This document shows, in pieces, positions 15,632 through 32,549 of a stretch of DNA of 41,246 nt (within the stretch, counting starts at the first letter, position 1; every line of letters starts with the position of its first letter). The DNA comes from a virus: positions 1 through 41,246 of IMG/VR virus record IMGVR_UViG_3300025466_001268; one strand, given 5' to 3'. Made by a program: the position numbers and the translations under genes. The notes under the pieces are model-generated. The model had not been told where the DNA came from, made no database searches, and worked only from the letters and a program-made list of their open reading frames with translations.

Positions 15632-15926
15632 CGTATTTTAGTTTCAATATAAGCATTTCAGTAGTGCTATACCAGCGAGTCCATACGGCAGGATCACCGG
15701 GACCTGTAATAACATACTGAGCACGATAGGCCTGAGTTAGCCACAAACGTCGTCCACTAGAATGGCACCGTCTAGGCCACAGCGACCATTTTAAATCAGT
15801 CCACGCCCGTTTTAAAAATTGTTCTTCATTGTAATCGTCAGGCATAACAACTCCTATACTTTCTGGTATTGGCATATGATTAATATTGTATAATCCTTGT
15901 GGGAACATTCCGTACCTTACTTTCAC
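15624..15926 (-). CDS. conserved phage hypothetical (100 aa)
   Basis: This small basic protein has the blocks SLWPRRCHSSGRRLWLTQAYR and ITGPGDPAVWTRWYS. The Pro-Arg-Arg-Cys and Thr-Gly-Pro-Gly features recur in small proteins of T4-like phages as I recall them, without known function. It overlaps the queE stop by 4 nt and is therefore coupled to it. Confidence 0.7.
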   Translation of the reverse strand: MKVRYGMFPQGLYNINHMPIPESIGVVMPDDYNEEQFLKRAWTDLKWSLWPRRCHSSGRRLWLTQAYRAQYVITGPGDPAVWTRWYSTTEMLILKLKYGV

Positions 15927-16783: not shown

Positions 16784-17042
16784 ATATTTTTGACCATTCA
16801 ACTAATTTTTGACTCTTACGCAACTGCGCCGCACGTAGTTCTGCATCTGTAAAAACTCTATGAGCTTTTAATAGTTCTATCAATAGTGTAACATCGCCTA
16901 GTTCTTGTACTAAATGCTCACGCTGAGTTCCGCCATCTTTGTACGAATTATCAATTCCAAAACGGCGAATCTTGCTAATAGCCTGGATAACTTCAGCACA
17001 CTCCTCTTGGAGTATGTCTAGGATTTCATTTACTTTACTCAC
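16773..17042 (-). CDS. MazG-like nucleotide pyrophosphohydrolase
   Basis: This 89-residue all-alpha protein has the MazG/NTP-PPase metal motif: EECAE at 13-17 and ELGD at 47-50. Such enzymes hydrolyse nucleoside triphosphates to monophosphates and pyrophosphate. It lies between queD and queE with overlaps on both sides, which suggests co-expression with deazaguanine synthesis, perhaps to clear non-canonical nucleotides (inference). Confidence 0.8.
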   Translation of the reverse strand: MSKVNEILDILQEECAEVIQAISKIRRFGIDNSYKDGGTQREHLVQELGDVTLLIELLKAHRVFTDAELRAAQLRKSQKLVEWSKIYED

Positions 17043-17554
17043 GCAAACAAGTCCTCATTCCATTCACGATGGCCTTCACGGAATGCCATATTGCTTTGCG
17101 TTTCTCTAACTTCCACGCGATAGCACCAAAGTCTATCTGCTTCTGCTTGACCCCACATATCCGGGATATAAACACCGTTAACATATTTGTATAATTGATC
17201 TGCTAGACCTTCGCAACCTAACTTTGGTAGGATAGTTAGTTTAGCAAGATTTTTTTCTTGTAGTAATTTGTAAGTTTCAAGTTCTGGATCATCTTCGGCT
17301 ACTAATAGCGTATGATCAAATTGACTTTCTAAGATGCCTTTAAGTTCTTTAAGACCACCGTAGTCGGCAGCCCAGTTACGTACATCTAAATCGTCTGTTC
17401 CAAAGTAAAACTTCATACTAAATGAATAGCCGTGAATTAAGTTACAATGACTGTCTGCTCTCCATTGGCGATAAGCGCAGGGAAATGCGTCGTGGTATTC
17501 TTTGGTGCTGGTATATTTGTACTGTCGCGGAATTGGTATTTCAATTGTATTCAT
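17039..17554 (-). CDS. queD: 6-carboxytetrahydropterin synthase (QueD/PTPS family)
   Basis: QueD turns dihydroneopterin triphosphate into 6-carboxytetrahydropterin. The core DSHCNLIHGYSF supplies His36, the catalytic Cys37 and His41, but Tyr43 stands where most family members have the third zinc His. A FDHTLL pair (80-81) and a late EVRET Glu complete the active site. At 171 residues it is longer than the 120-residue bacterial enzyme. A good sigma70-like promoter and ribosome site (AGGAG) precede it, so it heads the queD-mazG-queE unit. Confidence 0.9.
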   Translation of the reverse strand: MNTIEIPIPRQYKYTSTKEYHDAFPCAYRQWRADSHCNLIHGYSFSMKFYFGTDDLDVRNWAADYGGLKELKGILESQFDHTLLVAEDDPELETYKLLQEKNLAKLTILPKLGCEGLADQLYKYVNGVYIPDMWGQAEADRLWCYRVEVRETQSNMAFREGHREWNEDLFA

Positions 17555-18363: not shown

Positions 18364-18912
18364 TTATTTCCACCATTCTTCCCAAGGAAACACACACCAA
18401 ATTGGTTCCTCTAGTTTGTTGATATTTAGACCCGCATAGTCTACTGTTTTAAAATCACTTGCTTCGTTGTTAATTAACACCGCGGTACGTACATTGTTAC
18501 CCCAGACATCTTCCCAGCGATCGTGCATTGGCATACAACTATCTCGCCAATCTTCTTGAATCCACTGTAAAGTAGCACCGGTATCATTGATATCATCTAC
18601 AATCAAAATCTTTTTAGCACATAGGCTGTAGTCAAAGTCGGATAAGATTTTATCATGTTCGGGCACCCAACCAAATGCATCTTCGGCCATCCATAAGTTA
18701 CTTTCGGGACTGGCATTATCGTCACGAAAGCTAACTTTAAGAGTTTCCATCGGAACATCCAAGTATTGACTAAGCATAAGTGCCGGAACTAGTCCGCCAC
18801 GTGTAAGTCCAACAACATAGTCGGGGTGCCAATCATCTTTTGCCATACTACGAACGATTTCGTGTACCCATCCTTTAACTGTTGAATCTTTATAATATAC
18901 TTGTCTAGACAT
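18364..18912 (-). CDS. phosphoribosyltransferase (type I PRT fold)
   Basis: The PRPP-binding loop ILIVDDINDTGATL is diagnostic of purine/pyrimidine phosphoribosyltransferases. An upstream GLTRGGLVPALML is the second conserved loop, as in xanthine-guanine phosphoribosyltransferases. At 182 residues the length is typical. It would attach ribose-5-phosphate to a base. Nearness to queD, queE and folE makes a 7-deazaguanine base an attractive substrate, but salvage of ordinary purines is just as possible. Confidence 0.85.
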   Translation of the reverse strand: MSRQVYYKDSTVKGWVHEIVRSMAKDDWHPDYVVGLTRGGLVPALMLSQYLDVPMETLKVSFRDDNASPESNLWMAEDAFGWVPEHDKILSDFDYSLCAKKILIVDDINDTGATLQWIQEDWRDSCMPMHDRWEDVWGNNVRTAVLINNEASDFKTVDYAGLNINKLEEPIWCVFPWEEWWK

Positions 18913-19906: not shown

Positions 19907-20175
19907 GCTCTTAATAACTCCATACTGACAATTTGTCCAATACGTTCGGCAATGTTTTCGCCGTCGGGAATCACGTGTGTGATGTGATTGTTGCGATCAG
20001 TCTTACGATCGTAGCAACGAATCTGTACTACAGTTCCGCCCTGTGCCGGCATAACATTAAAGGATAGGCCTTCTACATCAACAGATCTTGCACCTACCGC
20101 TACATCCTGAACAGGTTGACTATTATGCCAATCATCTCGAACCCACTTAACAACTACTTTCTTTAGCCATTTCAT
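19903..20175 (-). CDS. GGxIVQV-family phage protein, copy 2
   Basis: This 90-residue member is the shortest and perhaps the ancestral form of the three-copy family. It has a basic amphipathic start (MKWLKKVVVKWVRDDW), a GGTVVQIRCYDRKTD strand and a THVIPDGENIAERIGQIVSMELLRA ending. The last block aligns with those of the copies at 11892-12320 and 31696-32040. It is coupled to folE by a 4-nt overlap. Function unknown. Confidence 0.8.
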   Translation of the reverse strand: MKWLKKVVVKWVRDDWHNSQPVQDVAVGARSVDVEGLSFNVMPAQGGTVVQIRCYDRKTDRNNHITHVIPDGENIAERIGQIVSMELLRA

Positions 20176-20951
20176 CTTGGTGCAAAGTCCTGTTGAAGTT
20201 TAATATTGTCCATAAACTCTTTCTTAGTTCCTGGATCTGTTTGAAACACACCTTTTAATACTGTGGTCTGTGTTAGACTTGAGTGTGCCATTATGCCCCT
20301 ATTTTCACAACACCCATGTTGAGCCTGTATATAAACACCAACATTCTCTGAATCAGTGGCCTTCATTATTTCTCGAGCAATATCATTACAAAGTTCCTCT
20401 TGAAGAGTACCACGGCGAGCACACCACTGAGCAATACGAGTGTACTTACTAAGACCAATAAGTTTGTTGGCAGCGATAATGCCAATATAAGCCACGCCAG
20501 ACACGGGCTGGTGATGATGACTACACATGCTACGGAGTTCACTACGCACAACCAACATTCCTTCATATCTATCCGCTGAATCATTTGGAAAAGCTGTTGC
20601 ATCTGGTGCTGGATCATACCTACCTCCCATAATTTCATTGTAATACATCTTGGCCAAGCGTCGTGCTGTGCCTTTTGAGTTTGGGTCATTTTCACGATCA
20701 ATCAACAAGGTATCTAACACCTTTTCAAACGCTTCAGTTGCTTCATTGATTAGGATTTCTTTATCGCCTTTGTGCAAGTAATCGCTGATATTATCACCGG
20801 CCCAGAAGCGTTTACCTTCTCGGCGCATATTAAAGCGAATAGCATCAGCTAAGTTTGCTTCTTCGTAACCTTTGTCGCTCATATTCATTGCGGCATCTTC
20901 GTATCCGGGATGATACGGTGCTTCTTCTACTAGTTTATTTTGATCCGACAT
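20172..20951 (-). CDS. folE: GTP cyclohydrolase I
   Basis: FolE opens GTP to dihydroneopterin triphosphate, the first step towards 7-deazaguanines (and folate). The zinc site is visible as RSMCSHHHQP and HGCCENRG, and the central KLIGLSKYTRIAQWCARRGTLQE block is characteristic. At 259 residues it is longer than usual, with an extra acidic N-terminus of about 40 residues. The leader GGAGAATAAATG is shared with the polymerase gene. With QueD and QueE it gives three of the four steps to preQ0. Confidence 0.93.
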   Translation of the reverse strand: MSDQNKLVEEAPYHPGYEDAAMNMSDKGYEEANLADAIRFNMRREGKRFWAGDNISDYLHKGDKEILINEATEAFEKVLDTLLIDRENDPNSKGTARRLAKMYYNEIMGGRYDPAPDATAFPNDSADRYEGMLVVRSELRSMCSHHHQPVSGVAYIGIIAANKLIGLSKYTRIAQWCARRGTLQEELCNDIAREIMKATDSENVGVYIQAQHGCCENRGIMAHSSLTQTTVLKGVFQTDPGTKKEFMDNIKLQQDFAPR

Positions 20952-21073: not shown

Positions 21074-22159
21074 ATGAAGCGTGTGGCAATCTGTGTTCCA
21101 AACCCCTGGGATTATATCTCCCGTTACGAAAAGAACTATAGTATTATGGTTCTCAATCCTACAGCACCAGCTGAGAGAACTCAATACCTACTAGACAATG
21201 CCGACTGGAGCATATTTGTAACCCCAGAGCAAGAACTATACAGAGATGGCTGCTACTATCCAAATGAAAAAGTATTTTGGTATACTAGCGGTACTACCGG
21301 CGACAGCAAGTTTTATGGATTTAACGAAACACAAGTAAACTATGTTTGTCAACAAATTATCACAGCTTACAATATAACTGCCAATGATAGGTATGTTGGC
21401 GTTATGGGATTATGGCATGCACATGGTCAAATGTTTTATTGGATGAGCAAGATGATTGGGTGTGAAACCACTTTCTTACCAACGTCAGAAATTAAAAACG
21501 TACACACATATAGCCCAACGTTCCTTACAGGGATTCCGGATATTCTTCGAGTTTTAGCAAAACAAGATCTTAAAGATTTACGATTTATTCGTAGTGCAAG
21601 TTCTGCGTTACCTAGTTACCAATATACCGCCATGAAAGAACGCTTTAGAGTTCCTATAATTGAGTCGTTTGGTATGACAGAGTCTTGCAGTCATAGCTTT
21701 ACTAATCCACTATTTGGTGAACAACGCATTGGTACAGTGGGATTACCTTGCGGAATAGATGCTAGAATTGATGATAATAGTAGATTGTTTATTCGCGGAC
21801 CATGTTTAGCACAATCGGGTTGGTTTGACACAGGCGATTTAGCTGAGCAAGACGATGCAGGCTATTATCGTATACTTGGACGTAGTGTGGATAGAATTAA
21901 CATACGTGGATACAAACTAGATCCAGTTAGCTTAGAAAATCAAATGTTTGAACGGTTGCCTAATCTTAGTCAAATAGCTATATTTGGTCGTGACCGGGTT
22001 AAATGTATCTATGTTGGCGAGTATACAGACGATCAAATTGTGTCGGCACTAAAAGAAATTGGCCCTTACTGCTGGCCAAGTTTAGTAGAACAAGTTGAAG
22101 ATATTCCTAAGAATGCCGCAGGTAAAGTAACTAGGACAATGTTAGATACTATATACTAA
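21074..22159 (+). CDS. short AMP-forming ligase (ANL superfamily adenylation enzyme)
   Basis: ANL core motifs are all present: the P-loop YTSGTTGDSK at 70-79, FGMTES, TGDLAEQDDAGYYRILGR, the hinge DRINIRGYKLD, and the C-terminal catalytic Lys in PKNAAGKVTR. The enzyme would activate a carboxylate as its acyl-AMP and pass it to a thiol or amine. At 361 residues it lacks about 100 or more residues of the usual N-terminal domain, yet the frame is intact. It is the only plus-strand gene, and its end overlaps the converging aminotransferase gene by 11 nt. No acyl carrier protein was found. No clear ribosome site precedes the ATG. Confidence 0.88.
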   Translation: MKRVAICVPNPWDYISRYEKNYSIMVLNPTAPAERTQYLLDNADWSIFVTPEQELYRDGCYYPNEKVFWYTSGTTGDSKFYGFNETQVNYVCQQIITAYNITANDRYVGVMGLWHAHGQMFYWMSKMIGCETTFLPTSEIKNVHTYSPTFLTGIPDILRVLAKQDLKDLRFIRSASSALPSYQYTAMKERFRVPIIESFGMTESCSHSFTNPLFGEQRIGTVGLPCGIDARIDDNSRLFIRGPCLAQSGWFDTGDLAEQDDAGYYRILGRSVDRINIRGYKLDPVSLENQMFERLPNLSQIAIFGRDRVKCIYVGEYTDDQIVSALKEIGPYCWPSLVEQVEDIPKNAAGKVTRTMLDTIY

Positions 22160-22784
22160 TTTTAGTATATGGTGTAATTGTTAACTCCCTGCAGTCAGGG
22201 TAGTTATAAAACTCAGGACGTTGTTCTGTAAATTGTTTAGCGACAAGCATATTAAGACCAGTTACACAGTCCTCGGGTTTCATATAGTAATGAAACCCTA
22301 CGTTAAATTCGCCTTGAGTTGACCAGGGCTTGTATTTAAAAATATTTCTACCATCCATACGCATACGACTAGCAGCTTCATATAGTTCACGATTATCTGT
22401 TAGTAAACATCCACCACGACCTATTTCTAACGGCTTAGTACGACCAAAGCTAACACATTGTACTTGACCATCTCTGTACATATGGCGATCAAACCGACGA
22501 GCACTATCCCAAATCTTACTGCCTTTAAATTCGTATTCGCCAGACCACTCTTCGTCTGTTAACATATAAGGAATGTTTAACTTTTGTAGTATCATTAGTA
22601 CACTTAGGTATGTACGTGCTGGAAACATTACTAAGTTATTATTAAATGTTAGACGAAATGCTATTTCCATTGCGTGTGTAAGCGAATCTGTTGCTACACA
22701 ATATGGAGCACCTGTATAGTGTGCTACTGCTCGTTCGAAGTCTAGTACAGCATCAAATGGATCGTTATAGTCGGTAATCTTCAC
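22149..22784 (-). CDS. short DegT/DnrJ/EryC1/StrS-type aminotransferase
   Basis: Fold type I, PLP-dependent sugar aminotransferase features: ATDSLTHAMEIAFRL near 31-45, FPARTYLSVLMIL at 54-66, Asp93 in IWDSARRF for the pyridine nitrogen, and the Schiff-base Lys117 in SFGRTKPLEIGRGGCLLTD. Only 211 residues are present against about 370 in the family, so the C-terminal domain is missing. It could be a reduced functional form or a regulatory relic. It is coupled to the hydroxylase-like gene by 4 nt and converges on the ligase gene. Confidence 0.82.
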   Translation of the reverse strand: MKITDYNDPFDAVLDFERAVAHYTGAPYCVATDSLTHAMEIAFRLTFNNNLVMFPARTYLSVLMILQKLNIPYMLTDEEWSGEYEFKGSKIWDSARRFDRHMYRDGQVQCVSFGRTKPLEIGRGGCLLTDNRELYEAASRMRMDGRNIFKYKPWSTQGEFNVGFHYYMKPEDCVTGLNMLVAKQFTEQRPEFYNYPDCRELTITPYTKISI

Positions 22785-23278
22785 AGTTGTGTTCCTGTAA
22801 TTTGTAATGTATATCTTGGCTCTGTGCCCATATTAAACGCAGTATGCGGGACATCAAAATTCCACGCAACATAATCTCCGCGTTGCCAATCTACTATAGG
22901 CTTACCGTCAATATCAAAGTAGTGCCCTGGTTGCCAATCATCCATAAACACAATAGCTCGCCAAATAACATTAGTATCAGTGATATTAAATACTCGTTGA
23001 TATGTTAAGTAATGATCTCTGTGAGTAGGAAGTATATCGCCTGTATTCATTTGATATAGTGCAGCCCCAGAGTCTTTCCAACCAAAGAAGTCTAGGAATG
23101 GCTTGGCATACTCGTTATCGTTTAACGGATGGATAGCACCATTAAGATGCATATTGGCGTAACCTTGCGACTTCCACTCTCTAACCATAGCTTCGTCTTT
23201 GTGTGGGAGATACTTATATTCTAACTGTTTAAAGCTATCGTCCCACCAGGGATCTATATGGCCAGTGCGATATTTCAT
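22781..23278 (-). CDS. 2-oxoglutarate/Fe(II) dioxygenase-like, aspartyl/asparaginyl hydroxylase type
   Basis: The double-stranded beta-helix iron triad appears as His86-x-Asp88 (LPTHRDHY) and His145 (VPHTAFNMG), with Arg155 (PRYTLQI) placed to bind 2-oxoglutarate. The WNFDVPHTAFNMG stretch is typical of the Asp/Asn beta-hydroxylase family. The 165-residue protein is a bare catalytic domain. It may hydroxylate a peptide, amino acid or small metabolite made by the surrounding island. It overlaps genes on both sides. Confidence 0.83.
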   Translation of the reverse strand: MKYRTGHIDPWWDDSFKQLEYKYLPHKDEAMVREWKSQGYANMHLNGAIHPLNDNEYAKPFLDFFGWKDSGAALYQMNTGDILPTHRDHYLTYQRVFNITDTNVIWRAIVFMDDWQPGHYFDIDGKPIVDWQRGDYVAWNFDVPHTAFNMGTEPRYTLQITGTQL

Positions 23279-23634
23279 TCTGACAAATGATCTTTCTTGA
23301 TTTCACGTACAGAGCAATTTAACTTTTCTGCCATTGTGTTCTTTAGTGCTACACGCTTGTTATTATGATCGCGAATAGCAATAGCACGTCGGCCAATTTC
23401 TTCTAGCCCTAATTCTGCTTCTCGACCAGTTTTAAGTAATGCTTCTAATTCCCAAATCTCGTTATGTATTTCTTTAAGTTGCTCGTACTCGTCTACAATA
23501 ACACTAATGTCAATGCGTAATGCTTCATTCATATACCAGAGTAATTCTTCTTCATTAGCTTTAGTACGTTTAAATTTAACTTCAGCAATAGCTAATCTAT
23601 CAACTAGTTCAATAACGGGGAATATAGGGTTCAT
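23275..23634 (-). CDS. DUF6165-like protein
   Basis: The protein is helical throughout with an N-terminal PVIELVDRLAIAEVKFKR and a C-terminal RAIAIRDHNNKRVALKNTMAE. These resemble the conserved ends of DUF6165 (a Glu-Leu-Val-Asp start and an Asn-Asp-x-Arg helix), a family often found near glycan-synthesis genes. The match is from memory. It stands between the hydroxylase-like and radical SAM genes with overlaps on both sides. Confidence 0.6.
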   Translation of the reverse strand: MNPIFPVIELVDRLAIAEVKFKRTKANEEELLWYMNEALRIDISVIVDEYEQLKEIHNEIWELEALLKTGREAELGLEEIGRRAIAIRDHNNKRVALKNTMAEKLNCSVREIKKDHLSE

Positions 23635-24659
23635 AGGTATAAGGTTTCGATGTCTTTAGGATTGTTTAATATGTTTTGTATTTTAATGTTACTAATGTTA
23701 GGTCTGCATGGTTGGCAAAACTCTACACGTGTCTTGTTATATATTTCATAGTGGCGTTCGTTAAGCCAACTATCGCGGAAGTCGCCTGCGTCCCAATTGG
23801 CTAGTTCAAATTGCGGATTGCCTTTGCCTTCGCAACAAATGTATATCTTGCCATCTGCACAGAATACAGGAAAGTGAAACATTTGATGACACTTCTTGTA
23901 GTTACGTGGCAATGTTTTGTTTTGATTAGCCCAGTATGGTAATCGATATTCCTGGCTACACTTTTCTAACATAGCAATAGTCGCTTCGGTAATGGGGTGT
24001 GCTTGGTTGTCGATAATAACCGGACGGAAGTAAATCATGCGTCCGCCAAGGTCCGATACTAACTTAAACAAATCATTCATTGCTTCAGGATTATCGTTTA
24101 AGGGATTAATCAAACACTTAAAGTCTACATTAACACCTGCTTCAATTAAACCACGTGCATTGTCCTTAACTTTAGTAAACAAACTCTTACTAGTTAAGCT
24201 ACGGCGTATTTCTTCGTATAGTGGTTCAGTACCAGCGTCAATATCAATACCAATCCAGGCCATCTTGCGTAGTTTATCTACATGTACGGTATCTAGTAAT
24301 CGGTCTAAGTTGCTGCCATTGGTAGTTAAACTAGTAAGGAATCCTAGGTCTATTGTATGCTCAATTACCTTTTCGTAACTGACTAATACAGTAGGTTCGC
24401 CACCACCTGGGTAGGTAATAGTGTGGGTAGTGCCATAACTGTTAGGAGTGTGTGCTCGCCAACCTGCCAGTTTATCTAGTAAGGCAATGTATTCTGTGTA
24501 TTTCTTTTGTACGGGTTTTTCTGCACGGAAGTCAGCAGAGTTACAGTAGTAACAGTCTTGGTTACATACGTTGGTTAGATCTATGTCTACCTGTGCAGGT
24601 AAGATCTTCATAGTGTCCTGGTTTTTCATCCAATGGACTAATTCGGCATATTGATACAT
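23631..24659 (-). CDS. radical SAM protein with SPASM-like C-terminus
   Basis: CNQDCYYC near residues 32-39 is the CxxxCxxC motif for the [4Fe-4S] cluster that cleaves SAM, and PGGGEPT follows as the GGEP-type motif. The C-terminal region has several Cys (KKCHQMF, FCADGKIYICCEG, FCQPCRP) that could hold auxiliary clusters as in SPASM proteins. These often modify peptides or, in some cases, sugars. It sits in the island with aminotransferase, hydroxylase and GalE. The substrate is unknown. Confidence 0.87.
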   Translation of the reverse strand: MYQYAELVHWMKNQDTMKILPAQVDIDLTNVCNQDCYYCNSADFRAEKPVQKKYTEYIALLDKLAGWRAHTPNSYGTTHTITYPGGGEPTVLVSYEKVIEHTIDLGFLTSLTTNGSNLDRLLDTVHVDKLRKMAWIGIDIDAGTEPLYEEIRRSLTSKSLFTKVKDNARGLIEAGVNVDFKCLINPLNDNPEAMNDLFKLVSDLGGRMIYFRPVIIDNQAHPITEATIAMLEKCSQEYRLPYWANQNKTLPRNYKKCHQMFHFPVFCADGKIYICCEGKGNPQFELANWDAGDFRDSWLNERHYEIYNKTRVEFCQPCRPNISNIKIQNILNNPKDIETLYL

Positions 24660-24671
24660 TATTGGGAGTTA

Positions 24672-25658
24672 TTATTGACGAGAGTACCATTTATAGGCAG
24701 AGTCGATAATAGTATTTATGTCGCTGTACTCAGGAGTCCATCCTAATTGTTCACGTGCTTTAGTAGCGTCAGCCACAAGCTCAGCAGGATCTCCCCAACG
24801 ATGTTCGCCGTAATTTACAAAAGGTAATCCGTAATGTTCCACAACATAGTCAACGATTTCCTTGTTGCTTATACCTTTGTTGGTGCCAAGATTAAAGATA
24901 CTAGCACCTTCATTGGGAGTTCCGCCTAGCCAAGCTGGGAATATGTATTCGACACCCTTGACGTGTGCTTGTGCAATATCCCATACGTGTACATAGTCAC
25001 GAATACAAGTTCCGTCTGGTGTTGCGTAATCTCCGCCGTTAATAGTAAACGCACGATTAGCTAAACTTGCTTCTAATACACGAGCAACAATGTGAGTAGC
25101 AGAAGGCTCTTGACCTAAATCGGCTGTTCCTGGCATAGCACCCGCGGCATTAAAGTAACGGAAACACATACTAGGTAATGCGTAAGCACCCCAATAATCT
25201 TTAAGTATTTCTTCGGTCATTGCTTTAGTATTACCATAAGGACTAATAGGATTCTTACGTGCGTGTTCGGGAATAGGTAAACGATCGGGTTGCCCATAGA
25301 CACTAGCACTACTACTAAACATAATAAAAGGCTTCTTGTCAAAGTCTTTGACAAAGTTTAATAGTTTTATAGTCTTGCTAATATTATTGTCATAGTACTC
25401 GCCAGGGTCAGACATACTAGGGCCCACAAGGCTGGTGCCAGCACAATGTACAATAACATCTGGCTGATAATCATACATGGTAGCAAGAGCATCATCACTT
25501 GCAAAATCAGAAATGTAGTATCCATCTAAGTCCTTTAGTGTGTGTTCACGACGAACACGGTCAATAACAATGACGTTATCGCTGTTTTGTTTAAATGCTC
25601 GTGCAACGTGACTACCAATGTAGCCGCACCCGCCCGTTACTACAATTCGTCTAGTCAT
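24672..25658 (-). CDS. galE: UDP-glucose 4-epimerase
   Basis: This is an extended short-chain dehydrogenase with the NAD motif VTGGCGYIGSH, the catalytic Ser region FSSSASVYG and the catalytic YGNTK (Tyr-x3-Lys). The internal FRYFNAAGA and the C-terminal RWGDPAELVAD are typical of GalE. It would interconvert UDP-glucose and UDP-galactose or their N-acetyl forms. At 328 residues it is full length. The ATG at 25658 lies inside a tiny upstream frame (8-nt overlap). Confidence 0.92.
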   Translation of the reverse strand: MTRRIVVTGGCGYIGSHVARAFKQNSDNVIVIDRVRREHTLKDLDGYYISDFASDDALATMYDYQPDVIVHCAGTSLVGPSMSDPGEYYDNNISKTIKLLNFVKDFDKKPFIMFSSSASVYGQPDRLPIPEHARKNPISPYGNTKAMTEEILKDYWGAYALPSMCFRYFNAAGAMPGTADLGQEPSATHIVARVLEASLANRAFTINGGDYATPDGTCIRDYVHVWDIAQAHVKGVEYIFPAWLGGTPNEGASIFNLGTNKGISNKEIVDYVVEHYGLPFVNYGEHRWGDPAELVADATKAREQLGWTPEYSDINTIIDSAYKWYSRQ

Positions 25659-25758
25659 TGTATTTCTTTGTAAAGATATGTACTAACCATAATATACCTA
25701 AGTTTATAGCATAATATATGGCTAGTATAATTGTAATTTTTATTTCTAGTTCAGTCAC
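25651..25758 (-). CDS. tiny membrane protein (35 aa)
   Basis: A GTG at 25758, overlapping the preceding gene's stop, opens 35 codons ending TAG within the start of galE. The product is one hydrophobic helix (ITIILAIYYAINLGILWLVHIF) with a short basic tail. The Shine-Dalgarno sequence is weak, but without this frame the gap would be over 90 nt, unusual here. Confidence 0.5.
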   Translation of the reverse strand: MTELEIKITIILAIYYAINLGILWLVHIFTKKYND

Positions 25759-25969
25759 TTTTCTTTTTGCGAGCTGTTTTAGCTTTAACTGCTGGCTTCT
25801 TTTCTGTGGCAAACATAGCTAGAGCTTCCATAACATCAGCTCTTAGTTTAACATCATCTACTACAAATTCAACCTTACCATTTGGGTATTGTGTGCGTAC
25901 ACTATGGCTACCCACTGTTACAACGGGTTCGCCTGCTACTTCTGATTTTTTACTTTTCTTGGTTGCCAT
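25751..25969 (-). CDS. small basic hypothetical (72 aa)
   Basis: Both ends are Lys-rich (MATKKSKKSE and KAKTARKKKSD) and flank a short beta-rich core around VVTVGSHSVRTQYPNGKVEFVVDD. The charge pattern would allow nucleic-acid binding, but no domain is recognised. The start lies within the end of the neighbouring coiled-coil gene (20-nt overlap). Confidence 0.68.
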   Translation of the reverse strand: MATKKSKKSEVAGEPVVTVGSHSVRTQYPNGKVEFVVDDVKLRADVMEALAMFATEKKPAVKAKTARKKKSD

Positions 25970-26162
25970 TTATCTGTTTCCTTAGTTCTTTATTTTCTGC
26001 TACTAAATCACGTGTAAGTTTTTTATAGTATACAATATCTTTACGCATAGTGTCAATTACAGCGGTATCGTATTTGTCTTGATTAGACGGTTCTTTGCGT
26101 ACTGATACACGACCGCATAGTATGCCAGATCCTATTGCAATAAGCCATAAAATAATATCCAT
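25950..26162 (-). CDS. single-pass membrane protein with coiled coil (70 aa)
   Basis: The first 17 residues (MDIILWLIAIGSGILCG) form an N-terminal anchor. A charged helix then runs from about 35 to the end (DTMRKDIVYYKKLTRDLVAENKELRKQI), a likely coiled coil. The layout parallels the 19320-19547 product. The ATG follows the previous stop directly. Function unknown. Confidence 0.7.
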   Translation of the reverse strand: MDIILWLIAIGSGILCGRVSVRKEPSNQDKYDTAVIDTMRKDIVYYKKLTRDLVAENKELRKQINGNQEK

Positions 26163-26345
26163 TTATTTTTTTGCCCTTGGCGTAGTGCAACTATCGGCCC
26201 ATAGTTTTTGCGCTTGCTTTTGATACGCTTCTAGTTCACACTTATCTCGCCATTCTTTGTATTGTTGTTCATTACGTGCGTGGCTTCCGTCGCAGTAAGG
26301 AGGGTGCATGGTTTTACCGCATCCGCATTTAGGAGAGCCCATCAT
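26163..26345 (-). CDS. CDGSH-type [2Fe-2S] iron-sulfur protein (60 aa)
   Basis: Residues 7-22 read CGCGKTMHPPYCDGSH, an exact fit to the CDGSH consensus C-x-C-x2-(S/T)-x3-P-x-C-D-G-(S/A/T)-H. The ligands would be Cys7, Cys9, Cys18 and His22, as in mitoNEET-type proteins. The rest is a charged helix. The double ATG at 26345/26342 overlaps the preceding TGA and has AAGGA 7 nt upstream; a frame start at 26405 would overlap that gene by more. It may transfer electrons or clusters, possibly to the radical SAM or dioxygenase proteins nearby (inference). Confidence 0.85.
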   Translation of the reverse strand: MMGSPKCGCGKTMHPPYCDGSHARNEQQYKEWRDKCELEAYQKQAQKLWADSCTTPRAKK

Positions 26346-26551
26346 TCTGGAATCCTTATATTTAATCCGCGCCATTCTAGTATAGGCCCGCCAGTAATAT
26401 CCCACCCTGTTTCTTCAGCCCACATGATGCGATGCGGCCATGGCCACGAAGCAGTTTTTACTTCATACATACCCGGATTAACAGGATCAACTTCACCAGG
26501 GAACCAGTCTGTTAATAATGATTCTAAATCTTCAGTTGTAAAGGTTGTCAC
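26342..26551 (-). CDS. small phage protein with PGMYE...WRGL domain (69 aa)
   Basis: A GTG at 26551 with GGGAC 4-5 nt upstream begins a 69-residue acidic protein. Its core VNPGMYEVKT...RIMWAEETGW...PILEWRGL resembles part of the 26642-27769 product (VYPGYYNAVW...LYWDGKEFGEW...VLTWQGF). I recall similar short 'PG-Y-E ... WRG' modules in bacterial and prophage proteins of unknown role. It is coupled to the CDGSH gene by an ATGA overlap. Confidence 0.68.
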   Translation of the reverse strand: MTTFTTEDLESLLTDWFPGEVDPVNPGMYEVKTASWPWPHRIMWAEETGWDITGGPILEWRGLNIRIPE

Positions 26552-26645
26552 ACAAGTCCCTAATTATATTACATAACCCAACGGTTATTAAGGTTGAAAT
26601 AGGAGTTGCTACTACAGTTAGTAGTAGCCACGATAAATTACTCAT
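26532..26645 (-). CDS. tiny membrane protein (37 aa)
   Basis: An ATG at 26645 overlaps the stop of the large acidic gene (ATGA) and opens 37 codons. The product is hydrophobic in its first 23 residues (LSWLLLTVVATPISTLITVGL) and ends in a polar tail. Its 3' end overlaps the next gene by 20 nt. Coupling and hydrophobicity are the support; function unknown. Confidence 0.55.
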   Translation of the reverse strand: MSNLSWLLLTVVATPISTLITVGLCNIIRDLCDNLYN

Positions 26646-27769
26646 TTGCAATACATCTCACGATTCTTACGACCTTTAGCAGTATCGGGATCATAATCAA
26701 TCCACGTAAACTCTGTGCCATCGCACTTGGGACAATGATCTGAAAAATCGTCATCTGTGCGTCGATCATCACCCATGCCTACCCAACCGCATTTTTTATT
26801 ATCGCATTTAATGTCAACTGGTTCTTTAGGTCTATTTGCCCAGTCGCTTGTGTCCCAATTAAATCCTTGCCAAGTTAGTACACCAGATACAGGTTTAAAC
26901 TTACCAAACTCCCACTCACCAAATTCTTTGCCGTCCCAGTATAAGCTACCATAGGTAGTACCAAAGTTGCTCCATACTGCATTATAGTATCCTGGATATA
27001 CTGGTTGCTGTTTCTTAAAATCAAACTTAGGACTCGATTCCCATGACTCTGGGCTTGTGCCATACTCAGGATGTCCCCAATCTTTATCGCCTGGCTCGTA
27101 ACGTTCAAAGTTGCCTTTGTCATCAATTAAACGAACCATATTAAAGTCAGAGCTCTTACCATCTGTACCACCACCCCAGTTGTCAATATCTTCGCCATCG
27201 TATTGCACACCGCTAACAATTTCTTCACCGTCAATTTCTTCGTAGCATAAGATTAGTTTAGTAATATCAAACGGCGCACGAAGTTCTAAGTCTGCTTCAA
27301 AGAATGTGCCTTTTTCGTTACTGCTACCAACAAACACAATCTCGCCCTTTTTGCGACTACCAATCCATGATTCATCAATGCATGACCATTCTGGACTATC
27401 ATCACTGCATCCATCGCAATCCTCTAATGAATGTTCAAATACAGTATCGCCATTTTCATCTTCGATATGTAGTGTCCCAGCATCACGGCTAACACCACTT
27501 GTATGGGCCATATCATCGCACTCGTACCAAGAACCCGGTGGAAATGGTAACATGTCTTGATCAAGGTCTAGTTCTTCGGCAGCATCACTGTCCCAAGCAA
27601 TATCGCTTAGATCAACTTGATGTTCCATACAGTAGTCCCAAACTTTAGGATCTACAGTACCCATAACTTTTTCGCCACCATAGCCCCACATACTAATCTT
27701 ATAAGTGCGTGGTGTAAATTTAAGAACTTCTACTAATTGTTCTGCTGTGATTTCTTTTGTATCCGACAT
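26642..27769 (-). CDS. large acidic phage hypothetical with C-terminal zinc ribbon
   Basis: This 375-residue, strongly acidic protein appears to have three parts. The N-terminal 100 residues have no known fold. A middle beta-rich part contains many Asp/Glu and a CDGCSDD loop. A C-terminal segment shares the PGYY...LYWDG...TWQGF module of the neighbour at 26342-26551 and then has a zinc-ribbon-like CDNKKCGW...HCPKCDG. The ribbon suggests binding to nucleic acid or protein. Function unknown. Confidence 0.75.
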   Translation of the reverse strand: MSDTKEITAEQLVEVLKFTPRTYKISMWGYGGEKVMGTVDPKVWDYCMEHQVDLSDIAWDSDAAEELDLDQDMLPFPPGSWYECDDMAHTSGVSRDAGTLHIEDENGDTVFEHSLEDCDGCSDDSPEWSCIDESWIGSRKKGEIVFVGSSNEKGTFFEADLELRAPFDITKLILCYEEIDGEEIVSGVQYDGEDIDNWGGGTDGKSSDFNMVRLIDDKGNFERYEPGDKDWGHPEYGTSPESWESSPKFDFKKQQPVYPGYYNAVWSNFGTTYGSLYWDGKEFGEWEFGKFKPVSGVLTWQGFNWDTSDWANRPKEPVDIKCDNKKCGWVGMGDDRRTDDDFSDHCPKCDGTEFTWIDYDPDTAKGRKNREMYCK

Positions 27770-27777
27770 AGTGCGCC

Positions 27778-28659
27778 TTAAAGTGTTTTAATCCAATCCC
27801 AAGTTTTGGACAGTCCTGTTTGTAAATCTACTTCTGGTTGAAATTTGATATCTGTATACATTTTACTATTATCTAATATCTTGTGCAAGATTCCGTTGTC
27901 CATTTCACTGCCCCACTGTAGTTTTAATGCGGGATCAACCAAATTTAATACCATTTCGGTTATATTTCGGATAGTAATGCCCTGTCCTGTGCTAATGTTA
28001 GTGGGCTTTTGGGTAGCAACGTCGAGTTCGCAATAACGGCAAACAGCTTCAGCAACATCGGTGATATAAATGAAATCACGTACAGCAATACCTGTGCCTA
28101 GCATAGGAATGGTATCTGTTTCTCGTTTAATCTTATTAAACAAACTACCAACAAAGTGACTCTTTTCAAAATGCAATGGTTCACCTGGACCATAGGCATT
28201 AGACACAACCAAATACTCCCATGGAATATCCATTGTTTCCATAGTTTTAAGTAACCATGTCTTACTCATAGCACTATACTTTACACTTGGATGATAGTTG
28301 TCGCTGGTGCCAATCATTGACTCTGTGATTAAGTCCGTAGCTGATTGTGGATAGATACAGGCACTACTAATAGCAACAAACTTACGAGGTCGAATTCGAT
28401 CTACTAGTCGACAGATGTTTGCTGACATTGTTATGTTACGATACAGTAACTCTCTACCATACTGTTGATTAAACACAATGCCACCAAAGAATCCAGCACT
28501 ATCAACGACAACATCGTAGTCGCCATTGATTGCCTCTACACTTTTACTATTAAGTAAGTCGCAGTTGTTGCTGTTGATAATAGTCCAAGACCAATCAGGA
28601 CGTTGGGCTACAATATTGCTTCCGATAAAGCCTGTGCCGCCTAAGATTAGTACTTTCAT
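27778..28659 (-). CDS. NAD-dependent sugar epimerase/reductase, GDP-fucose-synthase-like
   Basis: An extended SDR with the nucleotide-binding LILGGTGFIGSN at the N-terminus and the SSACIYP segment that is typical of GDP-L-fucose synthase-like enzymes. The catalytic Tyr and Lys occur as KYSAMSK, spaced Tyr-x4-Lys rather than the usual Tyr-x3-Lys. VRDFIYITDVAEA and NISTGQGITIRNI are further family blocks. At 293 residues it is slightly short. It shares a 4-nt overlap with the cupin gene, so a sugar-nucleotide path is likely. Confidence 0.85.
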   Translation of the reverse strand: MKVLILGGTGFIGSNIVAQRPDWSWTIINSNNCDLLNSKSVEAINGDYDVVVDSAGFFGGIVFNQQYGRELLYRNITMSANICRLVDRIRPRKFVAISSACIYPQSATDLITESMIGTSDNYHPSVKYSAMSKTWLLKTMETMDIPWEYLVVSNAYGPGEPLHFEKSHFVGSLFNKIKRETDTIPMLGTGIAVRDFIYITDVAEAVCRYCELDVATQKPTNISTGQGITIRNITEMVLNLVDPALKLQWGSEMDNGILHKILDNSKMYTDIKFQPEVDLQTGLSKTWDWIKTL

Positions 28660-29030
28660 TTAATTGGAGTAATAGGATTAGCGCAATCGTTCCAACGCTT
28701 AGTTAAGAAACTAACTGACTTACAGTCAGTTAACGGAACAAATGTATGTGGAGTTAATACAGGAATATAAACAGTTTGCCCAGGAGCCATAATAATTTTA
28801 CGTGTAGTGCCATCGTCTAAGGGTTCTAGATACAGACCTTCGCCGTGTACCAACATAATATATTCATCAAACTCAGTGTGGAAATGATGACCACGAGTAA
28901 CACCTGCTTTGGTATTAAGATAAACAAACTCTACAATGTTATCGTGTGGGATATAGCTATAGATAGCACCACGGCTATCTACACCTTTATCATTGATATC
29001 TGGTTCAAGTAATTGTATGCGTCCGGTCAT
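28656..29030 (-). CDS. cupin protein, sugar isomerase/epimerase-like (CapF/WxcM type)
   Basis: A single-domain cupin of 124 residues: SRGAIYSYIP, then KAGVTRGHHFHTEFDEYIMLVHGEG as cupin motif 1 with His-x-His and Glu, and PHTFVPL as motif 2 with His. The GVTRGHHFH form is close to the C-terminal cupin of CapF and to WxcM/FdtA sugar isomerases. It would act on the nucleotide sugar of the neighbouring epimerase, but a cupin with another substrate is possible. Confidence 0.8.
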   Translation of the reverse strand: MTGRIQLLEPDINDKGVDSRGAIYSYIPHDNIVEFVYLNTKAGVTRGHHFHTEFDEYIMLVHGEGLYLEPLDDGTTRKIIMAPGQTVYIPVLTPHTFVPLTDCKSVSFLTKRWNDCANPITPIK

Positions 29031-29641
29031 TTAATGTGTATTTCTTTAGAGTCTGATTCTATAGCATCAACTATGTGTTTGGCTACATACGCAGGATCTA
29101 ATGCTGCTAGCTCATCATATTGTTGATCAACTACTTCACGTGGTTGTGTATAACAAAAGTTTCTATGTCTAAAGTTAGTTTTAACTAGACCAAATTTAAC
29201 TTCAAGTATGTCAATGTGTGTAGCTTCTTGTCTAATTAAATCAATAGCAAATTTGCTACCTGCTTTAGTACTAGCGTAGACACTATGGAAAGGCCTAGCT
29301 TCATCTAATACGCTACTGCTACACCAAACATATTTACCGCTAGGTCTAGTGTTAGCAAAGTGTTTAAGCAAGAATAAGTTGCTAACATAGTTTACATTGA
29401 TTTGGCTTAATTGATTCTTCCAGCTGTTCTTTAAAAAGCCTTGGTAAGTACCTTCGGTATGTCCAGCGCAATTGATTAAAATATCTACAGTGGATAAGTC
29501 TATATTAAAAATAGTCTCAGGATAGTTGAGATCTAAATCCTTGGAAGATATAGTAGCTACATTATAACCACGGGCCGCTAACTCTTCTTTACATTTAGAT
29601 CCTACACCACCTGTTGCACCAATAATTAATACATTAGGCAT
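29027..29641 (-). CDS. short-chain dehydrogenase/reductase
   Basis: Classical SDR features are present: LIIGATGGVGS for NAD(P) binding, INCAGH in place of NNAG, WCSSS with the catalytic Ser, and VYASTKAGS giving Tyr-x3-Lys. At 204 residues it is a little short but complete. It overlaps the cupin gene by 4 nt and the glycosyltransferase gene by 1 nt, so it probably reduces or oxidises a sugar in the same path. Confidence 0.87.
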   Translation of the reverse strand: MPNVLIIGATGGVGSKCKEELAARGYNVATISSKDLDLNYPETIFNIDLSTVDILINCAGHTEGTYQGFLKNSWKNQLSQINVNYVSNLFLLKHFANTRPSGKYVWCSSSVLDEARPFHSVYASTKAGSKFAIDLIRQEATHIDILEVKFGLVKTNFRHRNFCYTQPREVVDQQYDELAALDPAYVAKHIVDAIESDSKEIHIK

Positions 29642-30834
29642 TAATATTTGCTTTCATGTGTGTGTTTACGATAGTCAGTACTCATGCGACGCCATGATTC
29701 GCCGTTACCTTCTAATATATCTACAATACGATCAATGGTACCATCTGTCCAGTCACTAATCTTACCTTGATTCTTGTGCGGATATCCTAATGCTAAACTT
29801 AACTTGTCAATAGCATCGTCTAAACTCCAAGGAACGTATAACCTTGTTGCGTCATTTGCAAAAGTTTCAGGGAAGCTACGATAAGCAGGATATAAAACAT
29901 TCGATCCAAGCGTATCTGCTTCTGATACGGTATTTGAAACCCAGTCTTGTAAAGCGCAATTAAACAATACCCTAGTGTCATTAAGCAAATTATAGTAATC
30001 ATTTTTTTCCAAGTCCTCATAGACTGTAAGTAATCCACGTGCTTGTAAATCTCTAGTACGGTTCATGTAGCTATCGTTATTGCTTTTTAATTTTGCACCA
30101 CTAAAGATACAGAACTCAGTGGTCGAATGTGGAGTACGACGATGCCATTCTTCAATCAAGTCCATGTAAAAATCAGGTTGTTTTTCTTGGTCCCAACGTG
30201 CAGCAAATCCAACACGCATTGGTCGATCATGAAAATGTTTAAGTTCGCCCGGTACACGACCACGAACTTCTTCTTTGCCAAATGCCAGCCCAGAAATATT
30301 ATAAATGTTTCCTTCCCACCCAGCAACCTTCATATGCATGGCCATTTCTTCATTGCTGGCTAGAATAATATCCGCAAAACTATCCACCATTTTTTCGTAA
30401 AGGCCCATCCACTTCTGCATACCCCACACGTGTACAAAATCGTCAGGATCAATGGATTGAGCAAGACAACGTACAGCAATACGGGGACGGTGAGCAGGAT
30501 CGATTTGATCCATAATATAAGGTAAGCTCTCGATACCTGGTTGAAACATGTCTTCAAAGTAGATAACATCTTCATTTGTAACTTCTCCTTGCTTCATCTT
30601 TTTAACAAGATTCATTAGTTGGCTCATACCAAAGTAAGTACGACCATGTGCGTCTAACACTTGTCCAGTTACAATAGCTTGGTCATTACTTAATGTTTCG
30701 CCTTCTACGATTTCGTAGTCGATACCACGACGTTCAAAGACTGCACGGTTCCACTCCTGTAGTTGTAGAGTGTAACGAGCTTTATAGGGCTCTAAGCCCA
30801 TGTACCATAATTTACGCATTTTATATAATTTCAT
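29641..30834 (-). CDS. GT-B glycosyltransferase
   Basis: The C-terminal half looks like a GT4-type donor-binding domain: MRVGFAARWDQEKQPDFYMDLI corresponds to the start of the second Rossmann domain. LLNDTRVLFNCALQDWVSNTVSEADTLG provides the Glu-containing donor loop (EADTLG). The N-terminal half has a WGMQKWMGLYEKM segment and no membrane helix. It would move the sugar made by the upstream enzymes onto an acceptor: a surface glycan, a virion protein or modified DNA. It is the first gene of its unit, after a long hairpin at 30878-30921. Confidence 0.82.
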   Translation of the reverse strand: MKLYKMRKLWYMGLEPYKARYTLQLQEWNRAVFERRGIDYEIVEGETLSNDQAIVTGQVLDAHGRTYFGMSQLMNLVKKMKQGEVTNEDVIYFEDMFQPGIESLPYIMDQIDPAHRPRIAVRCLAQSIDPDDFVHVWGMQKWMGLYEKMVDSFADIILASNEEMAMHMKVAGWEGNIYNISGLAFGKEEVRGRVPGELKHFHDRPMRVGFAARWDQEKQPDFYMDLIEEWHRRTPHSTTEFCIFSGAKLKSNNDSYMNRTRDLQARGLLTVYEDLEKNDYYNLLNDTRVLFNCALQDWVSNTVSEADTLGSNVLYPAYRSFPETFANDATRLYVPWSLDDAIDKLSLALGYPHKNQGKISDWTDGTIDRIVDILEGNGESWRRMSTDYRKHTHESKY

Positions 30835-30957: not shown

Positions 30958-31218
30958 TTAGTCACGCGGTTTCCAATTTGTATCACGTGGGCGGAAGTCT
31001 TTGCGCTCACGCTTAGGAGTACGCCATTGATCCCACGGCTCGCGACCTTTAGTCATTTTAACGTATTCGCCGTAGGGTGTGCGCTCGTTATACAAGTGCT
31101 TCTCATCGTAGGGGTAACCAAAGTCTCGACAAAAACGCTCATAGCGTTCTAAATCTTCAAAGATGGTTACTACTTCGGGTTTGAAACGAAGATACTTCTT
31201 TAGCCATTCTTGGGCCAT
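30958..31218 (-). CDS. conserved T4-like phage hypothetical (86 aa)
   Basis: The ATG at 31218 (MAQEWLKKYLRF) has AAGGAG 7 nt upstream, so the longer frame to 31281 is rejected. The product is highly charged, with IFEDLERYERFCRDFGYPYD and a C-terminus rich in Arg, Lys and Trp (WDQWRTPKRERKDFRPRD). The pattern is familiar from T4-like phages. A nucleic-acid-binding role is possible but not shown. Confidence 0.75.
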   Translation of the reverse strand: MAQEWLKKYLRFKPEVVTIFEDLERYERFCRDFGYPYDEKHLYNERTPYGEYVKMTKGREPWDQWRTPKRERKDFRPRDTNWKPRD

Positions 31219-31229
31219 TTTAATACTCC

Positions 31230-31694
31230 TTAAATTACGATTGAAAGATTTGGACGGGTGAGGTTGTAAGTAATTGAGCATCCGTTTTCACCGTCCTCGG
31301 ATACTTCAATAGTAATTGCACGTCCTGGATAGCGACCTGCAATTTGTAAATACAAGTCATCTGCAATCATTTCGCAAGACTTGTAGTTAAGTTCTAAAAC
31401 TCGATTTTCATTAAAGGGACCGGTCCCAGAGTAAAGGTTCTCAAGCCAGCGTTTGAACTGGATGAACTCGATGTCCCTGTCGTTATGGAAGACATCGATT
31501 GACACCCTGAAATGAAAGATATGACGATGAGGGCTAGCAAGGAACGAAACATTATATTCATCGTTAGTATTTAACTGTGGATCAGTAGCGGCTGCTGGAT
31601 AGCAGTGGATGCCTTCTCGTTGAAAAGTAACCCAAATTTGACGTTGTGCTGCATCTTTAACTCTTTCGATTGTTTCACGTTGCTCTTGATTCAT
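31230..31694 (-). CDS. T-fold protein resembling 6-carboxytetrahydropterin synthase
   Basis: The order of blocks follows the QueD/PTPS tunnelling fold: a strand with His56-x-His58 (SPHRHIFHFRVSIDVF), IEFIQFKRWLENL in place of the lid helix, a helix starting SCEMIADDLYLQI with Glu108, and a final IEVSEDGENG strand with Glu. The catalytic Cys-x3-His of true QueD is absent. It could be a diverged pterin-binding enzyme or a structural relative. I recall related unnamed proteins in T4-like phages. Confidence 0.7.
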   Translation of the reverse strand: MNQEQRETIERVKDAAQRQIWVTFQREGIHCYPAAATDPQLNTNDEYNVSFLASPHRHIFHFRVSIDVFHNDRDIEFIQFKRWLENLYSGTGPFNENRVLELNYKSCEMIADDLYLQIAGRYPGRAITIEVSEDGENGCSITYNLTRPNLSIVI

Positions 31695-31695
31695 T

Positions 31696-32040
31696 TTATG
31701 CCTTGAGTTTGTTTAGTGTAATAATTTTGCCTAGTTCTCGATCAAAGTCGGCGCCGTCGGGAATGATATGCAAGTCACCGTTACTGTAATCACTTTGGCT
31801 TACCTGTACAATAGTCCCGCCATTGGCTGGAGTAATTTTTACAGTAATTGTTCCGTTACTGTTAATTGGTGTAGAACTATACCCACCAGACACGCCATTT
31901 GGGTTGATAGTTAACGTACCTGGATTTAAGTATGTACTCATTAAATTATATTCCTGTGGTTTATCTTTTTGTATTGTAATTCTACCTGCCGCTAACCAGT
32001 TTAGTATGCTGATGCGGAAGTTGCGAAACCATAATTTCAT
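31696..32040 (-). CDS. GGxIVQV-family phage protein, copy 3
   Basis: Third member of the family at 11892-12320 and 19903-20175. It has an amphipathic start (LWFRNFRISILNWLAAG) nearly matching copy 1, a Gly/Asn/Ser/Thr-rich middle, GGTIVQVSQSDYSNG, and the ending LHIIPDGADFDRELGKIITLNKLKA. It overlaps its upstream neighbour by 4 nt. Function unknown; the repeated N-terminal helix suggests shared localisation or assembly. Confidence 0.77.
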   Translation of the reverse strand: MKLWFRNFRISILNWLAAGRITIQKDKPQEYNLMSTYLNPGTLTINPNGVSGGYSSTPINSNGTITVKITPANGGTIVQVSQSDYSNGDLHIIPDGADFDRELGKIITLNKLKA

Positions 32041-32549
32041 TTAATTACTTCGTCTTTAGTATATTTAGACCAATCGGTAAACACCCGACGATCTTTTAAA
32101 TCATGTAAGCTATGACACCAAACTCCGGGATTGGTTGCAGCAAAGTCTTTGTCATCGAGCTTAATTGTAGCATTATATCCTAATAGTTGTAAATAGGGCA
32201 GTTTCACCGAAATCATTGGAATGAAGTTGTTAAACTCAGTTAACCGACTTTGTGTTACAAATTCTACCATAGCCACATCAAAATCTAATGTAGATAACCA
32301 ACCATGCTCTAAACAATCTACAATCATCATTTCCCAATCTTGCCATTCGTCGGCATCTATTTTACCTTGTGGGAAACTTTGATTAGCACCAAAGTAAATA
32401 TGACTGCAATTATTATTCATTGCTTCTTGTAGAATAATTTGGCTATCCTGTATTCCAACTACAAATAGAGTTTTATGCCCAAATGCCGGACTGTGTTCTA
32501 CTTCTGTGCCAATAAAGAAATCTACTTGTTCGTGTCCTGCTCGCTTCAT
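32037..32549 (-). CDS. conserved T4-like phage hypothetical (170 aa)
   Basis: An alpha/beta protein with FFIGTEVEHSPAFGHKTLFVVG, CSHIYFGANQSF, a LSTLDFDVAMVEFV strand and a C-terminal LDDKDFAATNPGVWCHSLHDL block. I recall these blocks as conserved in T4-like marine phages, without known function. Repeated strand-helix units suggest a Rossmann-like or barrel core. It overlaps the DUF465-like gene by 4 nt. Confidence 0.78.
   Translation of the reverse strand: MKRAGHEQVDFFIGTEVEHSPAFGHKTLFVVGIQDSQIILQEAMNNNCSHIYFGANQSFPQGKIDADEWQDWEMMIVDCLEHGWLSTLDFDVAMVEFVTQSRLTEFNNFIPMISVKLPYLQLLGYNATIKLDDKDFAATNPGVWCHSLHDLKDRRVFTDWSKYTKDEVIK

Follow-up and report, generated by a model that had tools for sequence, protein, structure and literature searches.

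Introduction

Phage systems for 7-deazaguanine DNA modification combine FolE, QueD, QueE and QueC with a DpdA or DpdA2 enzyme (Hutinet 2019, PMC6884629). Sugars on phage DNA are known from the T-even phages: T4 encodes alpha- and beta-glucosyltransferases, RB69 has arabinosyl-hydroxymethylcytosine together with putative UDP-arabinose genes (PMC8056088), and hydroxymethylcytosine bearing glucose or arabinose protects T-even DNA from host nucleases (PMC8056088). Sugars are also found on 7-deazaguanines elsewhere. The huimycin cluster of Kutzneria pairs preQ0 genes with the glycosyltransferase HuiG, the sugar being carried on the 2-amino group (PMC7439116), and mammalian tRNA contains galactosyl- and mannosyl-queuosine (PMC10639084). 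Here we analyse one strand of a virus fragment of 41,246 bases, IMG/VR record IMGVR_UViG_3300025466_001268 (the whole stretch is called the window hereafter). It holds a block of sugar genes that ends in a glycosyltransferase (GT) of predicted GT-B fold, and on balance this block is probably the part of a 7-deazaguanine DNA hypermodification locus that supplies and transfers the sugar.

The locus is like the phage 7-deazaguanine system in that FolE, QueD and QueE are clustered with a DpdA-like enzyme of the tRNA-guanine transglycosylase (TGT) fold, DpdA2-type enzymes being present in linked relatives. It differs in that QueC was not found in the window's relatives, and it adds a conserved GT-B enzyme, a QueD-like protein in addition to QueD, and a nucleotide-sugar cassette that can be exchanged. 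As in the T-even phages, a base would be altered first and a phage GT would then add a sugar, and in some of those phages the region likewise contains genes for sugar nucleotides; in contrast to them, the predicted base is a purine (deazaguanine) and not hydroxymethylcytosine, it would enter DNA by transglycosylation rather than by nucleotide incorporation, and the enzyme is GT4-like. The huimycin cluster likewise joins 7-deazaguanine genes to a dedicated GT, which glycosylates a deazapurine, but huimycin is a free natural product and not part of DNA, and its cluster has QueC and a methyltransferase and no DpdA. Galactosyl- and mannosyl-queuosine resemble the predicted product as sugars on a 7-deazaguanine base in nucleic acid, whereas their sugar is attached to the cyclopentenediol of queuosine, a group for which we saw no genes in the window. 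No sugar on a phage 7-deazaguanine was found in the literature searched, and this novelty is provisional, Cui 2023 and de Crecy-Lagard 2024 lying outside that search.

Results

In the window, FolE, QueD and QueE are clustered, in an order that is conserved in relatives (Table 1). Because FolE, a phosphoribosyltransferase-like gene (PRT), QueD and QueE lie on one side of the sugar block and the genes for a QueD-like paralogue and a DpdA-like transglycosylase on the other, the block is situated inside a 7-deazaguanine-modification locus. A tblastn comparison of the window proteins with 114 loci revealed a constant gene order: DNA polymerase (PHROG 262 in the window), a 36020-type protein, DpdA, the 32037 protein, the QueD-like protein, the 30958 protein and GT, followed by a variable cassette and then FolE, PRT, QueD and QueE. 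The related records reach 374 kb in length; four contigs are doubled in the IMG/VR lists, and the linkage and cassette counts were corrected for these duplicates. All 72 contigs with room have DpdA within 6 kb of the GT; the distance to the QueD-like gene is within 3 kb in 81 of 82 contigs, and that to FolE within 10 kb in 48 of 49. The GT is a single copy beside DpdA in 18 of 19 large related records; the nineteenth, L017, is without the usual GT and has a different protein, GT-B-like by eye, in the same slot. A more distant marine contig (L118) keeps DpdA, 32037, QueD-like, GT, GalE, FolE, PRT and QueE.

Homologous GTs adjoin DpdA, the QueD-like gene or both in five other cultured lineages (BUCT-ZZ01, Acidovorax phage ACP17, PA5oct-like phages, Phosso and X1), for which laboratory hosts exist. 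The BUCT-ZZ01 enzyme is 63% identical to that of the window, the GTs of the window and of Xanthomonas phage X1 match with E 1e-14, and overlapping stop and start codons are found in several of the cultured lineages. The GT accompanies two types of DpdA, namely the type shared by the window and PA5oct and the DpdA2 type of nt-1, the latter in X1, ACP17 and BUCT-ZZ01 (E 4e-41 to 1e-49). That one GT family goes with two DpdA types points to function, beyond shared descent alone. The initial annotation had suggested that the block builds a modified sugar and transfers it to a surface glycan, the virion or DNA; this stands for the GT, which the linkage in several lineages assigns to the 7-deazaguanine locus, with DNA as the likely target of the sugar.

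The GT matches no Pfam family above cut-off. Its predicted model resembles the GT4 enzymes MshA, BshA and sucrose-phosphate synthase (Z about 24), and R213, K218 and D297-x7-E305, the GT4 catalytic residues, are invariant in the alignment. A predicted GT-B fold with competent catalytic residues is a feature that it has in common with the T4-type DNA glucosyltransferases; the T4 alpha- and beta-enzymes are not among its 50 best fold matches listed, a result that does not exclude kinship. By eye, the GT also resembles queuosine mannosyltransferase. The fold search further matched the UDP-glucose:tetrahydrobiopterin glucosyltransferase of Synechococcus 7942 (5zes, Z 22.2). FolE, a gene of the 6-pyruvoyl tetrahydropterin synthase (PTPS) family and a short-chain dehydrogenase (SDR) are all in the locus, so that, with the SDR as sepiapterin reductase, these genes and the GT could make a tetrahydrobiopterin glucoside as in cyanobacteria. 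We consider such a pterin glycoside extremely improbable: 5zes ties with many GT4 enzymes, the GT profile finds no sequence match to 5zes/BGluT, a pterin glycoside pathway has no use for the QueE and DpdA in the context, the SDR was found in no other cassette, and the phages with linked GTs are those of Acidovorax, Pseudomonas, Sinorhizobium and Xanthomonas.

All 17 PDB matches of the DpdA-like model with E<0.001 are TGTs, and the protein is 33% identical to PA5oct gp168 over its full length (E 1e-88). The class assignment is made from this fold and this homologue; a PDB sequence-profile search gave no match for the DpdA-like or the QueD-like protein, and the hhalign match between the DpdA alignment and the one nt-1 DpdA2 sequence was too weak. 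The model thus predicts a TGT-fold enzyme, for which we infer DNA rather than tRNA as the substrate. Its nearest solved folds are tRNA enzymes, and with glycosylated queuosines known in mammalian tRNA (PMC10639084) the TGT-like enzyme and the GT might instead make a glycosylated queuosine-like base in tRNA. We judge this to be very unlikely, since the linked homologues of X1, ACP17 and BUCT-ZZ01 group with the DpdA2 of nt-1, which has dPreQ0 in its DNA (PMC6884629), an argument that does not directly cover the window-type enzyme, and since the window contains no tRNA gene.

QueC was found above the PF06508 cut-off in none of 25 related records (two gave weak sub-threshold matches, and the window itself is a fragment), while the control search detected it in 11 of 14 genomes. 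We therefore make no assignment to the preQ0 branch. As QueC was not found, the pathway should end at 7-carboxy-7-deazaguanine (CDG), unless the QueD-like protein alters CDG or the host supplies QueC. In the QueD-like protein H30, H56, H58, E108 and E133 are invariant, and hhalign gave a weak but specific match to QueD (E 2e-4; the 12 other families compared gave 0.024 or worse). Its homologues adjoin que genes in Cellulophaga phiST, Rhizobium RHph_I1_18 and other phages. It probably acts on CDG. A CDG decarboxylase of QueD-like type (DpdL) and a subfamily DpdA3 are reportedly named in Cui's 2023 work; these may correspond to the QueD-like protein and the DpdA of the window. In QueD itself, Cys37 and His41 are invariant and HGY replaces the HGH zinc motif in the alignment. 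QueD also lacks a first histidine in the expected position, and the paralogue has H..HxH without the cysteine; the two may complement each other. Vibrio phage Bakedbeans (L128 5254-6405) encodes a 383-aa protein whose C-terminal part is the QueD-like domain.

Between GT and FolE lies a modular, exchangeable cassette: relatives exchange it while GT, DpdA, QueD-like, FolE and QueE remain. The distance from GT to FolE varies from 237 to 8,690 bases, and we counted 43 gene sets among 68 distinct contigs, ranging from almost nothing through GalE with a short DegT-type protein, or ADP-heptose-like genes, to the set of 13 open reading frames (ORFs) of the window. GalE is present in 49 of the 68 cassettes, the short DegT gene in 40, the radical SAM gene rSAM1 in 18, DUF6165 in 17, the acyl/aryl-adenylate (ANL) ligase gene, which is thus optional, in 12, the AspH-like (Asp/Asn-hydroxylase-like) gene in five and heptose-type genes in four. 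GalE, DegT, rSAM, DUF6165, AspH and ANL are all together in four contigs including the window; the window's cupin, and close relatives of the GDP-fucose-synthase-like SDR and the SDR that form a trio with it, were not found in any other cassette of the 68 contigs. In L042 the best NCBIfam matches, below equivalog cut-offs, are heptose-7-phosphate kinase, heptose-1-phosphate adenylyltransferase and ADP-heptose epimerase, next to a phosphatase-like protein and a cupin. The L095 clade is without a window-type cassette; it has a nucleotidyltransferase-cupin fusion before the GT, FolE is followed by another nucleotidyltransferase, and a second GT and an epimerase come after QueE. Cassette labels placed on a tree of 59 distinct GTs require 18 changes or more (minimum possible 9; shuffled 36). 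These gene sets and label changes do not support a reading of the block as one island kept as a unit, and the limits given in the initial annotation are too narrow, for the functional unit extends to both sides, over about 15.9-35.4 kb. Genes are gained and lost separately in relatives, but they return to the same slot, and the recurrence there of GalE, DegT, rSAM, DUF6165, AspH and ANL in related contigs takes the block beyond chance.

The turnover on the GT tree also fits an arrangement of two systems, in which the GT, perhaps with GalE, serves deazaguanine DNA and most cassette genes are an exchangeable hotspot insert whose products act on glycans or proteins of the virion or the host surface. 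Sugar genes are missing from many cassettes, which contain small ORFs only, in L005 rSAM1-DUF6165 lies beyond QueE as seen from FolE, and L028 and L030 have this pair without the GT or any deazaguanine gene, all of which would agree with such an arrangement. In L028 and L030, which represent a second phage cluster, the pair stands with SGNH-like, GT-A-like and further SPASM-like radical SAM genes. We nevertheless hold two systems to be unlikely: in large genomes close copies of GalE and the short DegT are confined to the GT-FolE slot (the exception is a weaker second DegT in G008), GalE comes directly after the GT in many loci, distant marine loci among them, and nucleotide-sugar genes lie within the deazaguanine locus in separate clades.

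All eleven gene types named in the initial annotation are present in 21074-30834, AspH, DUF6165 and CDGSH being sub-threshold, and the Pfam cut-off was passed for AMP-binding, DegT, Radical SAM, Epimerase (two genes) and short-chain dehydrogenase. The coupling by overlaps is real for six junctions of 1-4 bases (22781/22784, 23275/23278, 23631/23634, 28656/28659, 29027/29030 and 29641), but the acidic 375-aa ORF and small ORFs interrupt the series, and the ANL gene is on the other strand and convergent with the other block genes. The earlier interpretation is, overall, partly supported. A megablast search of GenBank phages with the block gave no match.

GalE is the best-defined enzyme of the block (PDB GalE match, E 8e-70). 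In the ANL ligase the N-terminal part of the family is missing and the C-terminal domain with its PKNAAGK motif is retained; the PDB match is oxalyl-CoA synthetase (E 2e-23), and its phage matches are generic ligases at about 24% identity. The short DegT protein is missing the small C-terminal domain, and its pyridoxal-phosphate (PLP) lysine, K117, is invariant in 26 of 26 aligned rows. DUF6165 and rSAM1 occur together in 32 loci, mostly adjacent or overlapping, and the C-terminus of rSAM1 is Cys-rich and SPASM-like by eye. PADLOC models for prokaryotic viperin match both radical SAM genes (E 7e-13 and 4e-21); this identity was dropped, as no viperin is among the PDB sequence matches of rSAM1. 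The GDP-fucose-synthase-like SDR matches GDP-fucose synthase in the PDB (E 5e-23). It has YxxxxK in place of the expected YxxxK, a spacing that may change its activity.

Table 1. Genes of the sugar block and of the flanking 7-deazaguanine genes in the window.
Feature	Coordinates	Strand	Evidence or remark
QueE-like radical SAM enzyme (makes CDG)	15923..16801	-	PHROG 2076 E 8e-53
QueD/PTPS family	17039..17554	-	Pfam PTPS E 8e-14
PRT	18364..18912	-	Pfam Pribosyltran E 3e-13
FolE, GTP cyclohydrolase I	20172..20951	-	Pfam E 1.6e-39; PHROG 2197
Short ANL ligase	21074..22159	+	Pfam AMP-binding E 1.6e-25, 90 bits, residues 68-238
Short DegT-type PLP protein, 211 aa	22149..22784	-	Pfam DegT E 2.5e-15, 57 bits
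Asp/Asn-hydroxylase-like dioxygenase (weak)	22781..23278	-	Pfam Asp_Arg_Hydrox E 0.008, below cut-off
DUF6165-like protein	23275..23634	-	Pfam E 0.015, below cut-off
Radical SAM enzyme (rSAM1)	23631..24659	-	Pfam E 1.3e-11; 32 related loci
GalE, UDP-glucose 4-epimerase	24672..25658	-	TIGR01179 equivalog cut-off passed, 305 vs 262
CDGSH-like Fe-S protein (weak)	26163..26405	-	Pfam E 7e-5, 23.5 vs cut-off 29.5 bits
Acidic 375-aa protein, no function assigned	26642..27769	-	Relatives in 10/68 cassettes
GDP-L-fucose-synthase-like SDR	27778..28659	-	NCBIfam NF047922 E 4e-37, below cut-off
Cupin, FdtA/RmlC-like	28656..29030	-	Pfam Polysacc_synt_C barely passed, 29.5 vs 28.7
SDR	29027..29641	-	Pfam adh_short E 4e-14
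GT, GT-B fold, GT4-like; locus core gene	29641..30834	-	Predicted model, pLDDT 83
Small conserved protein between GT and QueD-like gene, no function assigned	30958..31281	-	
QueD-like paralogue	31230..31694	-	PTPS-type H..HxH and E residues, without catalytic Cys
Conserved protein between DpdA and QueD-like gene	32037..32549	-	In ACP17 between FolE and DpdA
DpdA-like guanine transglycosylase, 520 aa	33857..35419	-	DSGGFQ motif; predicted model, pLDDT 87

Further genes accompany the locus. Directly before DpdA lies a sulfotransferase-family gene (35391-36020), kept in relatives but diverged (25-49% identity), whose product could sulfate the same sugar. Between DpdA and the 32037 gene there is a second radical SAM gene (32728-33864) with a Cys-rich N-terminus, and between QueE and QueD a small protein, MazG-like by eye (16773-17042); a MazG-like gene likewise adjoins FolE and the QueD-like gene in Cellulophaga phiST. 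The PRT gene has the same position in relatives and in BUCT-ZZ01. Small glycine-rich proteins, alike in make-up, are scattered between genes (11892-12320, 19544-19906, 31696-32040) and occur also in L017, L042 and L095. Two neighbouring proteins at 13327-14722 are SGNH-hydrolase-like by eye (one has a weak DUF6071 match), and similar proteins are located within other cassettes.

With regard to the host, psbA is absent from all 21 related records searched, so a cyanobacterial host is unsupported for the phage family as a whole; BUCT-ZZ01, a Synechococcus phage (host S. elongatus PCC 7942), is an exception to this picture. Four phage contigs with the locus (L118-L121) are binned in metagenome-assembled genomes of Rickettsiales, Phycisphaerae, Syntrophomonadaceae and Rhodobacteraceae, which is probably mis-binning.

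Discussion

We propose a pathway in four steps. FolE, QueD and QueE would convert GTP to CDG, where the pathway probably stops unless it is diverted by the QueD-like protein. The DpdA-like transglycosylase would then swap guanine in phage DNA for the deazaguanine base, and the GT-B enzyme, as its linkage suggests, would put a sugar on the modified base, either in DNA or before insertion. GalE would provide UDP-galactose as the donor, and DegT, the AspH-like protein, ANL, the GDP-fucose-synthase-like SDR, the cupin, the SDR and rSAM would tailor this sugar or build another. The bulky sugar base would shield the phage DNA from host nucleases. The more specific proposal that the DNA contains a glycosylated 7-deazaguanine whose sugar varies between relatives (galactose-type, amino- or acyl-tailored, or heptose) through swaps of the cassette beside a fixed GT is one that we put forward tentatively.

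Several points weigh against this pathway. Firstly, the modified base, the sugar and the DNA substrate are all predictions, and the linkage within the freshwater family is partly shared descent. Secondly, rSAM1 and DUF6165, which are part of the cassette, may serve another target, given that L028 and L030 have the pair outside such a locus. Thirdly, if the QueD-like protein removes the carboxyl of CDG, no obvious acceptor for a sugar would be left at position 7; by analogy with huimycin, the 2-amino group would then be one alternative acceptor. Fourthly, the window is a fragment, and QueC or further genes may lie outside it. Finally, a distant GT relative in Xanthomonas PhiXhv-12 has GlmS-like and deacetylase-like genes as neighbours, no que gene being annotated within view, and perhaps belongs to a different sugar-DNA system. 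The distant relatives of the GT are in L133 (6878-7981) and L132, from Xanthomonas PhiXhv-12 and Erwinia Ep032.

If the proposal is true, 7-deazaguanine modification in phages serves as a handle for hypermodification with sugars, the role that hydroxymethylcytosine plays in T-even phages. The sugar would then be exchangeable as a module, which would be expected to counter changing host nucleases. The prediction extends to 95 related contigs and to the cultured phages BUCT-ZZ01, ACP17, the PA5oct-like phages, X1 and Phosso.

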